Source: Candidatus Wolfebacteria bacterium (lineage in GTDB: Bacteria > Patescibacteriota > Minisyncoccia > UBA6257 > UBA9933). Taken from it: 37,506 nucleotides of DNA. Location of the stretch: positions 1 to 37,506 of the forward strand of contig JACRPK010000022.1 of assembly GCA_016214005.1 (NCBI GenBank), read 5' to 3'. The notes under the pieces were generated by a model. The model was not told the DNA's origin and made no database searches. It saw only the letters and a list, made by a program, of their open reading frames with translations. The position numbers were made by a program, and so were the translations under genes. This document shows positions 13,154-23,534 of the stretch, piece by piece; position 1 is the stretch's first letter; each line of letters opens with the position of its first letter.

Positions 13154-15751
13154 ATGTTTAAATTTATTCAAAAAAGAAACGGCCAGCTGGTTCCGTTTAA
13201 AATAGAAAAAATTACCAACGCTATTTATAAAACATCAATTGCGATTGGCGATCCGAATTGGCAATTGGCCGGAGAGTTGGCAAATGAAGTTTTTAAGCGG
13301 CTTAATAAAAAAACTCCAAAAGGCGCTGTTCCGTCGGTTGAAGAAACCCAGAATGCCGTTGAAAAAATTTTAATTGAAACAGGTCATGCTCGAATGGCAA
13401 AGTCTTATATTTTATACCGCCAGCACCGCGCTGAAATCCGGCAAGAAAAAGAGCAAATTTTAAATAAATCGGAAATCGACGAGGTTGATAAAAAATTTGA
13501 TATTAACGCTTTGAGAGTTTTGGCTTCGCGCTATTTAAGAAAAGATGAAGATGGGAAAATCAGCGAATCGCCGAAGCAGCTTTTTGAAAGAGTGGCTATT
13601 CATACGACTATTCCTTCTTTATTTTATGATCAAAAAATTTATAAAAAAGGCGGCGGCGCTAAAGAACATCGTTTTGAAGATTTTGATAATTTTAAATTTG
13701 CCGGAAAATTTTTCATTGGCAAATATAAACTCAATCAATTTCATTTGGAAGGCGTAAAAAGGCTTTTTGACAGGCTTTCTAATCAAAGGAAAATTAAAGT
13801 TTCTTGGCAATCATTTTTAGATTTGCTTAAAAAAGGCTATTTTGACAAATATGAAGTTGAAATTACTTCATATTATAATTTAATGGTGAGCCGCCATTTT
13901 ATGCCCAATACTCCGGCTTTAGCGAATTTCGGCAATTATTTTGGTATGGGTAGCGCGTGTTTTGTGCTTGGCGTTGAAGATTCTATTGATTCAATTATGG
14001 CTACTTTAAAAGCCGCGGCAACTATTTTTAAATCCGGCGGCGGCGTGGGGTATAATTTTTCTCATTTGCGGCCAAGTGGAGATTTTGTAAAAACTACCGG
14101 TGGTGAATCTTCGGGTCCGATAAGTTTTATGTCTATGTTTGATAAGATGACCGAGGTAGTTAAGCAAGGCGGCATCAGGCGGGGAGCCAATATGGGGATT
14201 CTGAATTCTGACCATCCGGATATTGAGGAATTCGTTAAAGCTAAAGAAGGCAATAAGGCATTAAGAAATTTTAACATTTCTATAATGATGAAGCCGGAAT
14301 TTTGGCAGGCCATTAAAGAAAATAAGCCATATAAATTAATAAATCCGCGCAATGGGAAAGTCGTTAAAGAAATAGACGCTCAACAATTATTCAATATAAT
14401 CGCTTATCAGGTTTGGGAATCAGCCGAGCCGGGCATAGTTTTTTACGATCGCATTAATGAATACAATCCTTTTGCCAAATCTTTAGGGCCGATTGAATGC
14501 ACCAATCCCTGCGGCGAAGTTTTGCTCTATCCTTTTGAGAGCTGCAATTTGGGTTCTATTAATGTTTGGGAATATGTTAAAAAAAACGGCGGCAAAAAAC
14601 CGAGTTTTGATTGGGATAGCCTTGGTCGCGACGTGATTTTGGCGACTAAGTTTTTGGATAATGTCGTTGACATTAATAAATATCCGCTTAAAGAAATTGA
14701 AGAAATGAGTTTAAATACCAGAAAGCTCGGATTGGGTGTGATGGGAGTCGGAGATTTGCTTTTTGAGTTGGAGATTCCTTACGCCTCAAAGCAATGTTTG
14801 GAATTTATGGAGCGCTTGATGCAATTTATAAATTATCATTCGAAAATCGCTTCAATGGAATTATCCAAGGAAAGAGGTAAAATGCCCTATTTTGATAAAT
14901 CGTTTTATAAAGAAGGCAAACTTCCTTTTTCCGGATTTAAAGATAAAAAATCATGGGATTTTGATTGGAATGATATTATCAAAAAAATCAAAAAATACGG
15001 AATTAGAAATAGCTTTACAACTGTCATCGCGCCGACAGGTTCAATTTCTATGATTGCCGGCACTTCAAGCGGCATTGAGCCTATTTTCAGTTTGGTTTTT
15101 GAAAAAAGCGTAGCCATTGGCAATTTTTATTATGTTGATCCGGTGTTTGAAGAAAAAATGAGAAAAGAAGGTTTGATGGACGAAGATCTTATCAAAGACA
15201 CGGCGGTTTTAAATGGTAGCGTAAAAAATATTCCTTATATTCCCGAGCGTTTGAAAAAGATTTTTTCAACTGCTATGGATATTTCGCCCATTGATCATAT
15301 TAAGGTTTTGGCAGCTTTTCAGAAATGGGTTGATTCTTCAATTTCTAAAACTAATAATTTCCCGAGCGATGCCACAGTTGATGACATTAAAAAAGCTTAT
15401 TTAATGGCTTATGAATTGGGCTGTAAAGGAGTAACTGTTTATCGCGATAAATCTTTGACCCAGCAGGTTTTAATCGGCGGTAGCACAAAAAAGAAACATC
15501 ACGAAACTTCAAAGCTCGCGATTATCAAAGATGAAAAAGCCAAAGGAATGGCGGTTTATTCCGAAGCCGGAGCCAGCGCGGGTATAGGTTCAATGAATTT
15601 ATCGCCGGCCCAAGAATCAAAAAATGAATCTCAAAATAATTTTAATAATTTAAATGGCGGTGTTAAAAAATGTCCGTCTTGCAGCGCGCCTTTGGTAAAA
15701 CAAGAAGGTTGCATTAAATGTCCGGCTTGCGGCTGGGGAATGTGTTCTTAA
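13154..15751 (+). CDS. Ribonucleoside-diphosphate reductase, probably class II (adenosylcobalamin-dependent)
   Basis: N-terminal ATP-cone-like region; NTPALANFGNYFGMGSACFVLGVEDS; NPCGEVLLYPFESCNLGSINV; C-terminal CPSCSAPLVKQEGCIKCPACGWGMCS. No small subunit gene in the window. Confidence 0.87.
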   Translation: MFKFIQKRNGQLVPFKIEKITNAIYKTSIAIGDPNWQLAGELANEVFKRLNKKTPKGAVPSVEETQNAVEKILIETGHARMAKSYILYRQHRAEIRQEKEQILNKSEIDEVDKKFDINALRVLASRYLRKDEDGKISESPKQLFERVAIHTTIPSLFYDQKIYKKGGGAKEHRFEDFDNFKFAGKFFIGKYKLNQFHLEGVKRLFDRLSNQRKIKVSWQSFLDLLKKGYFDKYEVEITSYYNLMVSRHFMPNTPALANFGNYFGMGSACFVLGVEDSIDSIMATLKAAATIFKSGGGVGYNFSHLRPSGDFVKTTGGESSGPISFMSMFDKMTEVVKQGGIRRGANMGILNSDHPDIEEFVKAKEGNKALRNFNISIMMKPEFWQAIKENKPYKLINPRNGKVVKEIDAQQLFNIIAYQVWESAEPGIVFYDRINEYNPFAKSLGPIECTNPCGEVLLYPFESCNLGSINVWEYVKKNGGKKPSFDWDSLGRDVILATKFLDNVVDINKYPLKEIEEMSLNTRKLGLGVMGVGDLLFELEIPYASKQCLEFMERLMQFINYHSKIASMELSKERGKMPYFDKSFYKEGKLPFSGFKDKKSWDFDWNDIIKKIKKYGIRNSFTTVIAPTGSISMIAGTSSGIEPIFSLVFEKSVAIGNFYYVDPVFEEKMRKEGLMDEDLIKDTAVLNGSVKNIPYIPERLKKIFSTAMDISPIDHIKVLAAFQKWVDSSISKTNNFPSDATVDDIKKAYLMAYELGCKGVTVYRDKSLTQQVLIGGSTKKKHHETSKLAIIKDEKAKGMAVYSEAGASAGIGSMNLSPAQESKNESQNNFNNLNGGVKKCPSCSAPLVKQEGCIKCPACGWGMCS

Positions 15752-19997: not shown

Positions 19998-22900
19998 ATG
20001 GCAGAAAATAAAAAATTTAGCATTAATGAATTAGAAAAAGAGGTTTCGGAATTTTGGAAGAAAAACAGAATTTTTGAGAAATCTGTTGAAAAGCCGGCTG
20101 GTAAAAAACCAAAAGACGATTATGTTTTTTTTGACGGTCCGCCATTTGCCACCGGAACGCCTCATTACGGCCATATTGTTGCCAGTGTTATGAAAGACGC
20201 GGTGCCCAGATATTGGACAATGAAAGGTTATCGCGTAAAACGCCGCTGGGGCTGGGATTGTCACGGATTGCCGATTGAAAATATTGCCGAAAAAGAACTT
20301 AATATAAAACGTAAAAAAGAAATTGAAGAAATGGGGATCGGGAAATTTAATGAATTTTGCCGTTCAAAAATTTTCGGTTATGTTGATGAATGGAAAAAAG
20401 TTATTGACCGCCTGGGCAGATGGGTTGATATGGAAAACAGCTATAAAACAATGGATGCGTCTTTTATGGAGTCTGTTTGGTGGGTTTTTAAAGAACTTTG
20501 GGACAAAAATTTGATTTATGAAAATTATCGTTCAATGCATGTTTGCCCGCGATGTGAAACAACGCTTTCTCAGCAAGAAGTGAGCGAAGGGTATAAAAAT
20601 ATTAAAGATTTGTCTGCAATAGTTAAATTTAAATTAAAGCCAAATCAAGCAATTGGCAATTGGATGTCTGGTAATAGAACATATTTATTAGCATGGACAA
20701 CAACGCCGTGGACTTTGCCGGGCAATGTGGCCTTAGCTGTTGGAAAAAATATTCAATATTCATTTTCAGAAAAAGATGGAGATGAAATAATTTTTGCCAA
20801 GGATTCGCCAGTGGCTAAAATATTAGGAACTATTTCTAAAGGACCGGTTTATGGAGTAGAACTTATTGGGAAATTTTATGAACCGCTTTTTGATTATTAT
20901 TCAAAAGATAATTCGTTAGCTGGCGAATTAAAAAATCGTGAGCAGGGATGGCAAATTTACGCCGGAGATTTTGTTACAATAGAAGACGGCACAGGGATTG
21001 TTCATATCGCGCCGGCGTTTGGCGAAGATGATTTTAAATTGATGGAGAAATATAATTTGCCGTTTATTCAGCATGTTGGCATGGACGGAATTATCAAGCC
21101 GGAAGTGAAAGATTTTAGCGGTGTTGATCTTAAACCGAGGGCTAAAAATAAGCCCGAAGAAATAAGAGAAACAGATTTGCAAATAGTAAAATTTTTAGAA
21201 GATCAAGGAAAGATTTTTGATTCAAAAAAATACGAACATAGCTATCCGCATTGTTGGCGTTGCGACACGCCGCTTATTAATTACGCCACTTCTTCGTGGT
21301 TTGTGAATATTTTGAAAACCAAAGATAAGGCTATTAAATTGGCAAAAGGCATAAATTGGTCGCCTGAGCATATTAAAGAAGGCAGATTCGGCAAATGGCT
21401 GGAAGGAGCGCGGGATTGGTCAATTTCCAGACAAAGATATTGGGCATCGGCAATGCCGATTTGGAAATGCGCAAATTGCAAGGCGATAAAAGTTATCGGT
21501 TCTGTTGATGACATTAAAAAAAGCGTTAAAAAATCCGGCAATAAGTATTTTATAATGCGCCACGGCGAGGCCGAGCAGAATGTTAAAGATATTATTAATT
21601 CAAATATAGAAAATAATCATTTTCATTTGACTCAGAAGGGGAAAAAACAGGTTTTGGTTGCGGCTCAAAAATTAAAAAAAGGATTAAAAAAAGAAAACAT
21701 TGATTTAATTTTCGCTTCTGATTTTTTGCGGATAAAAGAAACAGCGGAAATAATCACTGAAAATATCGGCTTTGCTAAATCAAAGATTATTTTTGACAAG
21801 CGTTTGAGAGAAGTGAACACGGGAATATTTAATAATAAAAAATCGCAGGATTATCATGATTATTTTTCTTCGCTTGAAGAAAAATTTTATAAAATTCCGC
21901 CGGAGGGCGAAAATTTAACAGAACTTAAAAATAGAATCACGGAATTTTTATATGAAATTGAAGGCAAATATTCCGATAAAAATATTTTAATACTCAGCCA
22001 TGAATATCCGATTTGGTGTTTATTCGCCGGAGCTAAGGGATTTAATTTAAAAGAAGCAACGGGGATGAAAGAAGGACACAATGATTTTATAAAAACCGGA
22101 GAAATTTTAAATCTTAATTTTGCGCCGTTGCCGCATAATAATAATTATGAGCTTGATTTACATCGTCCCTATATTGATGAAATTAAATTTGACTGCGAGT
22201 GCGGAGGAAAAATGAAGCGGATTTCAGATGTTTTAGATACATGGTTTGATTCCGGTTCAATGCCTTACGCTCAGGCGCATTATCCTTTTGAAAATAAAAA
22301 AGAATTTGAAAAAAATTTTCCGGCTGAATTTATTGCCGAAGGATTAGATCAGACGCGGGCGTGGTTTTATTATTTGCATTGCATTGCTGCGGCCATAAAA
22401 AATTCGCGGGCTTTTAGCAATGCGATTGTTAATGGCATTGTTTTGGCCGAAGACGGAAAAAAAATGTCAAAGAAATTGAAAAATTATCCCGATCCGATAC
22501 ATATTATTGATAAATATGGCGCTGACGCTTTGCGGCTTTATATTCTGTCATCTCCGGTGGTGGCTGCGGAAAATCTTAATTTTTCAGAGGCCGGAGTTGA
22601 TGAAATTTATAAAAAAGTCATTATGAGGCTTTGGAATTCATATCAATTTTATGAAATGTATGGCGAAAAGATTAAAATTTCAAAATTTAAGATCAAAAAT
22701 TCAAAAAATATTTTAGATAAGTGGATTTTGGCGCGACTTAATCAATTAATTGCTGAAATTTCAAAGTCAATGGATGAATATAAACTTGATAGGGCAGCGC
22801 GGCCAATCGGCGATTTTGTTGAAGATTTATCAACTTGGTATATCCGCAGATCGCGGGAAAGATTTAAAACCGAAGGAAATGATAAAAAAGTTGCCATTGA

Positions 22901-23534
22901 AACGACGAAATTTGTCTTGGAGGAATTTTCAAAAGTCATCGCGCCCTTTGCGCCGTTTATGGCGGAAAAAATTTATCAAAATTTAGGCAATAAAAATTCC
23001 GTTCATTTGGAAAATTTCCCCAAAATTGATAAAAAAGCAATTGATAAAAAATTGATTGAAGCTATGGTGGAAATCAGAAAAATTTGCTCGCTTGGGCTTG
23101 AGGCGCGGCAGAAAGCGGGGATAAAAGTCAGGCAGCCTTTGTCAGAATTAATAATTAAAAATTTTGAATTAAGAAATAATAAAGAATTATTGGAATTAAT
23201 AAAAGATGAAATTAATGTAAAAGAAATTATTTTTGATAAAAATATTGCCGATGAAGTTGAATTAGATATTAAAATCACGCCGGAATTAAAAGAAGAGGGC
23301 CAATTGCGCGAATTAACTCGCGCTATTCAAGATTTACGCAAAAAATCCGGGTTTTTGCCGGAGCAAAAAATTATTTTAGAAATTCAAACAAATGCGGCTG
23401 GCGAAAAATTGATAAATAAATTTGAACCCGAACTTAAAAAAAATGTTGGCGTGAAAGAAATAAAAATAAAATCTGTTAATGGGGAATTTCTAAAAATAGA
23501 TGAATTTGAATTTAGAATAGAAATAAAAAAATAA
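19998..23534 (+). CDS. ileS: Isoleucyl-tRNA synthetase with internal histidine-phosphatase domain
   Basis: GTPHYGHI (HIGH), WDCHGLPIE, LAWTTTPWTLPGN (editing domain), DVLDTWFDSGSMPYAQAHYPFE, DGKKMSKKLKNYPDP (KMSKS). Internal insertion MRHGEAEQN...SDFLRIKETAEII...LREVNTG...LSHEYP. Confidence 0.95.
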   Translation: MAENKKFSINELEKEVSEFWKKNRIFEKSVEKPAGKKPKDDYVFFDGPPFATGTPHYGHIVASVMKDAVPRYWTMKGYRVKRRWGWDCHGLPIENIAEKELNIKRKKEIEEMGIGKFNEFCRSKIFGYVDEWKKVIDRLGRWVDMENSYKTMDASFMESVWWVFKELWDKNLIYENYRSMHVCPRCETTLSQQEVSEGYKNIKDLSAIVKFKLKPNQAIGNWMSGNRTYLLAWTTTPWTLPGNVALAVGKNIQYSFSEKDGDEIIFAKDSPVAKILGTISKGPVYGVELIGKFYEPLFDYYSKDNSLAGELKNREQGWQIYAGDFVTIEDGTGIVHIAPAFGEDDFKLMEKYNLPFIQHVGMDGIIKPEVKDFSGVDLKPRAKNKPEEIRETDLQIVKFLEDQGKIFDSKKYEHSYPHCWRCDTPLINYATSSWFVNILKTKDKAIKLAKGINWSPEHIKEGRFGKWLEGARDWSISRQRYWASAMPIWKCANCKAIKVIGSVDDIKKSVKKSGNKYFIMRHGEAEQNVKDIINSNIENNHFHLTQKGKKQVLVAAQKLKKGLKKENIDLIFASDFLRIKETAEIITENIGFAKSKIIFDKRLREVNTGIFNNKKSQDYHDYFSSLEEKFYKIPPEGENLTELKNRITEFLYEIEGKYSDKNILILSHEYPIWCLFAGAKGFNLKEATGMKEGHNDFIKTGEILNLNFAPLPHNNNYELDLHRPYIDEIKFDCECGGKMKRISDVLDTWFDSGSMPYAQAHYPFENKKEFEKNFPAEFIAEGLDQTRAWFYYLHCIAAAIKNSRAFSNAIVNGIVLAEDGKKMSKKLKNYPDPIHIIDKYGADALRLYILSSPVVAAENLNFSEAGVDEIYKKVIMRLWNSYQFYEMYGEKIKISKFKIKNSKNILDKWILARLNQLIAEISKSMDEYKLDRAARPIGDFVEDLSTWYIRRSRERFKTEGNDKKVAIETTKFVLEEFSKVIAPFAPFMAEKIYQNLGNKNSVHLENFPKIDKKAIDKKLIEAMVEIRKICSLGLEARQKAGIKVRQPLSELIIKNFELRNNKELLELIKDEINVKEIIFDKNIADEVELDIKITPELKEEGQLRELTRAIQDLRKKSGFLPEQKIILEIQTNAAGEKLINKFEPELKKNVGVKEIKIKSVNGEFLKIDEFEFRIEIKK
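21543..22120 (+). other. Histidine phosphatase (phosphoglycerate-mutase-like) domain embedded in IleRS
   Basis: In-frame KYFIMRHGEAEQN (RHG at 21558-21566), FASDFLRIKETAEI, LREVNTGIF, ILSHEYPIW (His codon at 21999-22001). Confidence 0.85.

Follow-up and report, generated by a model that had tools for sequence, protein, structure and literature searches.

A predicted histidine-phosphatase domain inserted in a patescibacterial isoleucyl-tRNA synthetase, and the recurrent association of such domains with isoleucyl- and valyl-tRNA synthetases

The window analyzed here, a stretch of 37,506 nucleotides from a Candidatus Wolfebacteria genome, carries on its forward strand, as do all the features described below unless stated otherwise, a gene that we term the ileS-RHG fusion (19998-23534). 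It is one uninterrupted frame of 1178 codons and codes for an isoleucyl-tRNA synthetase (IleRS) with an inserted histidine-phosphatase domain. An NCBIfam profile search recovered the IleRS equivalog model TIGR00392 (ileS) with 852 bits (cut-off 621), and this is the single IleRS found at that level in the genome of the window. The catalytic core contains the HIGH-type signature as HYGH (residues 56-59; 20163-20174) and the KMSKK signature (residues 822-826; 22461-22475), both intact, as are the CP1 editing-domain motifs WTTTPWTLP (233-241) and GTGIVHIAP (331-339; 20694-21014 for the two). Within the latter, W233-T236, W238, G331, G333 and H336 are invariant in a full-length alignment of fused IleRSs (A2; 77 rows, 35% mean column identity). 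The closest solved IleRS is PDB 8c8v (715 bits), as against 291 bits for the 921-residue IleRS1-type chain 8c9e; going by the types assigned to these P. megaterium structures (PMC10485003), the sequence places the synthetase part of the fusion in the IleRS2 type. An AlphaFold2 model of the whole protein has a mean pLDDT of 91.9 and a pTM of 0.88. The fusion gene thus appears, as far as its sequence goes, to encode an intact IleRS, which is predicted to aminoacylate tRNA-Ile.

Two further observations may be noted. The swapped form of the first signature, GXHH, is frequent in related IleRSs (a crude pattern count among the fused proteins gives 62 GxHH vs 76 HxGH, the window protein being HYGH), and this form has been tied to mupirocin hyper-resistance (PMC10485003). 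Further upstream, positions 13154-15751 code for an adenosylcobalamin-dependent class II ribonucleotide reductase.

The inserted block comprises residues ~510-716 (21525-22145), about 207 in all, and lies between the two cysteine pairs of the zinc hairpin: the CxxC of its first half (C491, C494; 21468-21479) comes shortly before the insert and the CxC of its second half (C733, C735; 22194-22202) shortly after it, followed by DVLDTWFDSG. As a result the SRxRYW and WFDS motifs are 276 residues apart in the window protein, as opposed to 68-94 in insertion-free relatives, and 449-467 apart in proteins with two tandem domains. The full protein matches the Pfam His_Phos_1 domain (PF00300) over residues 518-688 (21549-22061) with 96 bits (E = 3e-27; cut-off 21.7), and the segment on its own does so with 99.9 bits (E = 1.9e-28). 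An earlier, sequence-only reading of this DNA had proposed an RHG phosphatase inside the IleRS frame at 21543-22120. This span falls within the block as delimited here, the profile match bears out the proposed family, and the cysteine pairs and the DVLDTWFDSG motif that it gave as flanks were correctly recognized.

All the motifs quoted in that reading are likewise present, namely the RHG motif, with R521 and H522 as the expected phosphate-binding arginine and nucleophilic histidine (21558-21563), SDxxRxxxTAE with R578 of the phosphate pocket (21729-21731), LxExxxG with E605 as the expected acid/base (21810-21812), and the second catalytic histidine, H668 (21999-22001). Across 131 copies of the domain the first three positions are always occupied by R, H and R, the fourth is always E or D (E in 107 of the 108 IleRS copies) and H668 is kept in 130, the exception being a copy in a valyl-tRNA synthetase (ValRS; L123). 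The entire R-H-R-E/D-H set is found in 130/131 copies overall and in every one of the 108 IleRS copies, the mean pairwise identity of which is ~32%; in alignment A2 the residues R521, H522, S574, R578, E605, E638, R646 and H668 are invariant. A pseudo-domain is ruled out by these invariant catalytic residues. That the insert might be degenerate or serve a purely structural role, e.g. as an additional tRNA-binding surface, would suit its location at the zinc hairpin, and appended domains do serve structurally in eukaryotic synthetases, but with all catalytic residues kept in 108 IleRS copies we regard this as scarcely credible. In one closely related pair of inserts (L016/L017) dN is 0.035 and dS 0.298, i.e. 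a dN/dS of ~0.12, which indicates purifying selection; this pair is unsaturated, the remaining ones being more divergent and many of them having saturated dS.

When modeled alone with AlphaFold2 the domain attains a pLDDT of 94.5 and a pTM of 0.90, as expected of an insert that folds autonomously. Foldseek searches with this model show an alpha/beta/alpha fold shared with superfamily members (probability 1.00; TM ~0.7-0.8 by query length), with a phosphoserine phosphatase as the top match (PDB: 4ij6/4ij5; E ~1e-13), and Foldseek and profile searches together point to PspA-type phosphoserine phosphatase, PhoE, TIGAR, Rv2419c and CobC as the nearest relatives. On the strength of its profile match and predicted fold we assign the domain to branch 1 (PF00300) of the RHG histidine phosphatase superfamily, as a member of the PhoE/PspA/CobC-like kind. 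None of the named RHG equivalogs (dPGM, CobC, PspA, GpmB and SixA) is recovered at its NCBIfam cut-off, the scores being 90 of 225 bits for dPGM_arch, 63 of 163 for CobC, 59 of 350 for PspA and 43 of 74.5 for SixA; hence the substrate cannot be read from homology. Residue conservation, purifying selection and the confident fold give good support to the prediction of a catalytically competent phosphatase within the IleRS, i.e. a bifunctional protein, the inserted domain of which is likely to be an active phosphomonoesterase.

As dPGM_arch is the top partial NCBIfam match, and the fused ileS directly follows a soluble pyrophosphatase gene in two genomes of family f9, one could envisage that the domain stands in for the cell's own phosphoglycerate mutase or pyrophosphatase. 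However, besides an enolase the genome of the window codes for a metalloenzyme of the iPGM type (PF01676) and for a soluble pyrophosphatase, which makes such replacement roles very improbable, and PF01676 is present in 40 of the 41 genomes searched; moreover, PPi is not normally hydrolyzed by RHG phosphatases. We accordingly reject replacement of the mutase, in view of the iPGM-type enzyme, and disfavor that of the pyrophosphatase, the cell having a soluble one of its own. The only other RHG match in the genome of the window (G000:C15; L244:2833-4032, reverse strand) is a 399-residue protein resembling 6-phosphofructo-2-kinase/fructose-2,6-bisphosphatase, which combines a Pfam 6PF2K match of 191 bits with His_Phos_1 and is unexpected in a genome of 0.64 Mb.

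The same architecture recurs both in a set of 100 relatives and in a sample of 381 genomes from across the phylum. Of the loci that were fetched and have a long IleRS frame, 168 contain the insert and 20 lack it, and as these 168 come from unrelated assemblies and are identical in architecture, a chimeric assembly, which the sequence-only reading had named as a possible source of the join, is ruled out. In one phylum-wide sample 11 of the 12 genomes of the window's class possess a fused IleRS, and the fusion is near-universal in this class, which is likely to correspond to Paceibacteria/Parcubacteria. The relatives bear names such as Wolfebacteria, Nomurabacteria, Yonathbacteria and Paceibacterota, which point to the Patescibacteria. 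Outside the class IleRSs are mostly insertion-free and 930-1080 residues long, although the fusion turns up in scattered families. The 80 top-ranking relatives from a scan of 85,462 species, each represented by one genome, comprise 75 that lie inside an IleRS and five separate genes, four of which are directly upstream of ileS; these scans rank by similarity and may have missed rare fusions beyond Patescibacteria. An apparent member from Spirochaetia (L152) was set aside, because its genome (G476) and one of the window's own family (G013) agree contig by contig in their IleRS matches, and the title of L152 therefore looks wrong. A separate RHG gene of the insert clade also occurs in a genome titled archaeon AR19 (L217), where it nests among the bacterial inserts, suggesting transfer. 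In family f27 (L055, L056 and L057) in-frame TGA codons are found throughout ileS, at 3-12 per match, which suggests that TGA is recoded.

The insertions are not confined to one site. Within IleRSs RHG domains occupy three sites, with up to three copies per protein: IleRSs of family f106 have two in tandem, that of L114 has two at different sites, and that of L116 (3-4382, +) has three. NCBIfam-typed ValRSs with RHG domains were also recovered (L120-L123, L132 and L139-L141), most of them with the domain at the homologous hairpin and two with it in the loop after WFSS. In phylogenetic trees the ValRS inserts and the second copies fall outside the main insert clade. All the large domain-bearing frames that were fetched and typed proved to be IleRS or ValRS, with no LeuRS, MetRS or ArgRS among them. 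In two loci (L125:1481-2869, +; L126:1323-2660, -) a PGM-like RHG domain is fused instead to a membrane protein with a VTT (DedA-like) domain.

Other enzymes have entered such synthetases as well. The IleRS of L118 (1138-5490, -) has a GNAT domain in the loop after WFESG and an RHG domain ahead of the anticodon-binding domain, and the ValRS of L140 (327-4157, +) has three extra enzyme domains, namely HAD, serine hydrolase and RHG. Thus GNAT, HAD and serine-hydrolase domains are each found inside single IleRSs or ValRSs of other Patescibacteria, from which it follows that these loops may take up small enzymes generally; the restriction of RHG domains to IleRS and ValRS could stem from a permissive loop that both enzymes share and not from a common substrate. 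The window protein itself scores 307 bits with NF040702, the NCBIfam model for IleRS with a GNAT domain, far below the cut-off of 1999, and its 1178 residues contain no Pfam match to a GNAT domain.

A further line of evidence comes from genomes in which the two functions are encoded apart. In the set of 100 relatives a separate copy of ~200 residues scoring at least 195 bits, the level at which fused copies score, is present in 7 of 14 genomes with an insertion-free IleRS from the same order vs none of 79 with a fused one. The associated Fisher p of 4e-7 is uncorrected for relatedness and overstates independence, since the positives all come from families f12 and f23, two in number. Other lineages, at least four, have the separate RHG gene as the immediate upstream neighbor of ileS (L143, L144, L185, L215, L221 and L225). 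In L215 the two frames share an ATGA and in L225 they overlap by 8 nt; in L144, L185 and L143 they are a few to ~20 nt apart. The separate copies nest at several places within the clade of IleRS inserts (SH-aLRT 98; tree without L221), and a tree of IleRSs from which the inserts were removed requires at least nine changes between fused and free states, for which gain and loss are indistinguishable. No high-scoring separate copy was found in four insertion-free lineages of the order (f17, f27, G084 and G092), and the partnership with RHG is to that extent dispensable.

Some of the neighborhoods contain additional genes. In L145 (3878-8501, +) an RHG phosphatase gene is followed by one for an HD_4 domain (RelA/SpoT-type HD) and by an insertion-free ileS, and in two loci of family f9 (L248 in G029 and L074 in G069) the soluble pyrophosphatase gene overlaps the start of the fused ileS; each case being a single lineage, they give at most a faint hint of nucleotide by-products or signaling. 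In L134 (G161) an RNase HI gene lies directly upstream of the fused ileS; RNase H-RHG fusions are known from elsewhere.

How far do these patterns speak for a role in charging? One account would have an ordinary metabolic phosphatase lodged in a permissive loop of a well-expressed class Ia synthetase, with co-expression as its only link to charging. It would be in keeping with the GNAT domain in the IleRS of L118 and the HAD and serine-hydrolase domains in the ValRS of L140, with the nearest solved relatives PspA, PhoE and CobC being metabolic phosphatases, and with the genes directly upstream of ileS, among which argS is far commoner than a separate RHG gene (33 vs 5 of 116 loci). Nevertheless, RHG domains from several branches occur at three positions and in two synthetases, the large domain-bearing frames that were typed are all IleRS or ValRS, and a coupled upstream gene is found where the domain is unfused. 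A single accident is insufficient to explain such repeated insertions and coupled genes, and we consider this account rather unlikely, though it is the main rival of the reading given next.

We favor instead, with a probability of roughly 0.55, a functionally coupled small-molecule phosphatase that is tethered to isoleucine and valine charging. Recurrence supports the tie to charging: the gene adjacent to ileS, the insertions in ValRS and the multiple sites within IleRS together argue for a selected partnership rather than one accident. The association of RHG domains with Ile/Val charging in Patescibacteria is itself observed, and we infer that selection has held the two together. RHG enzymes attack terminal phosphate groups by way of a phospho-histidine intermediate. 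The inserted domain would, in the same manner, take a terminal phosphate off a phosphorylated small molecule, either a metabolite or a nucleotide, which is formed at the synthetase or regulates it, and the tethering would both set the dosage of the phosphatase and place it at the site of charging. The sequence-only reading had likewise envisaged a bifunctional enzyme linked to charging or editing; the competent phosphatase and the link to charging are upheld in the qualified sense given above, but no sign emerged of a part in editing or of action on an aminoacyl-adenylate product, and the aminoacyl-adenylate itself is an unlikely substrate because its phosphate bears two substituents. A narrower version, in which the RHG domain is a partner dedicated to Ile/Val charging and its substrate a nucleotide or phospho-metabolite that the synthetase produces or senses (candidates include alarmones, products of dinucleotide breakdown and inhibitors that resemble nucleotides), is put forward more tentatively; if true, IleRS and ValRS would be bifunctional enzymes of charging and clean-up or signaling.

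Alternatively, the target might be a macromolecule, i.e. the synthetase itself, a partner protein (for instance at a phosphohistidine) or tRNA, with the phosphatase tuning charging. Regulatory domains are typically tethered in cis, and the SixA branch is reported to act on phosphohistidine, with nucleoside diphosphate kinase among its targets (PMC12934123). Yet the neighbors of the domain in both sequence and fold are small-molecule phosphatases, and the 43 bits that SixA scores on the segment fall below the scores of dPGM_arch, CobC and PspA, leaving a regulatory protein or RNA phosphatase improbable beside the tethered small-molecule phosphatase.

What makes the fusion of wider interest is that, throughout a class of bacteria, an essential and ancient enzyme has become stably joined to a second one that is itself complete, with repeated parallel fusions and separate-gene versions, a pattern of recurrence that usually signifies a real functional link. 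Should the substrate relate to charging, there would be an unrecognized chemical step at the isoleucine and valine tRNA synthetases, and the separate versions coupled to ileS, along with the mutable RHG histidine, make the link testable outside hosts that are hard to grow. The sequence-only reading knew of no experimental description of such a fusion, and our search of the open-access full-text literature, which found no published account of an RHG-IleRS fusion, agrees with it. Both halves belong to known families; it is their merger, its class-wide spread, the repeated fusions and the separate genes that are undescribed in that literature.

Comparison with known systems clarifies what is shared and what is distinct. 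The synthetase part has its catalytic, editing and anticodon-binding domains and its signature motifs in common with the IleRS2-type enzyme of P. megaterium (8c8v) and that of T. thermophilus (1ile), but none of the solved IleRSs found has a match that continues into the insert, the zinc hairpin of the window protein being longer by ~207 residues. The inserted domain shares its fold and catalytic residues with PhoE (1h2e), PspA-type phosphoserine phosphatase (4ij5) and CobC (6e4b), its best matches in sequence and structure, at ~21-23% identity in the fold search, differing from them in being embedded in a tRNA synthetase. The proteins described by NF040702 and the IleRS of L118 likewise contain a small enzyme domain within an IleRS, but this is a GNAT domain, in L118 at another loop. 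Among published systems the nearest analogue found is MutT1 of mycobacteria, a Nudix protein with a C-terminal RHG domain, the activity of which has been described as unknown (PMC11784022). MutT1 and the bifunctional RNase H/acid phosphatase both join an RHG domain to an enzyme that handles nucleotides or nucleic acids, as is the case here; they are, however, tandem fusions, whereas the domain of the window is inserted into the synthetase.
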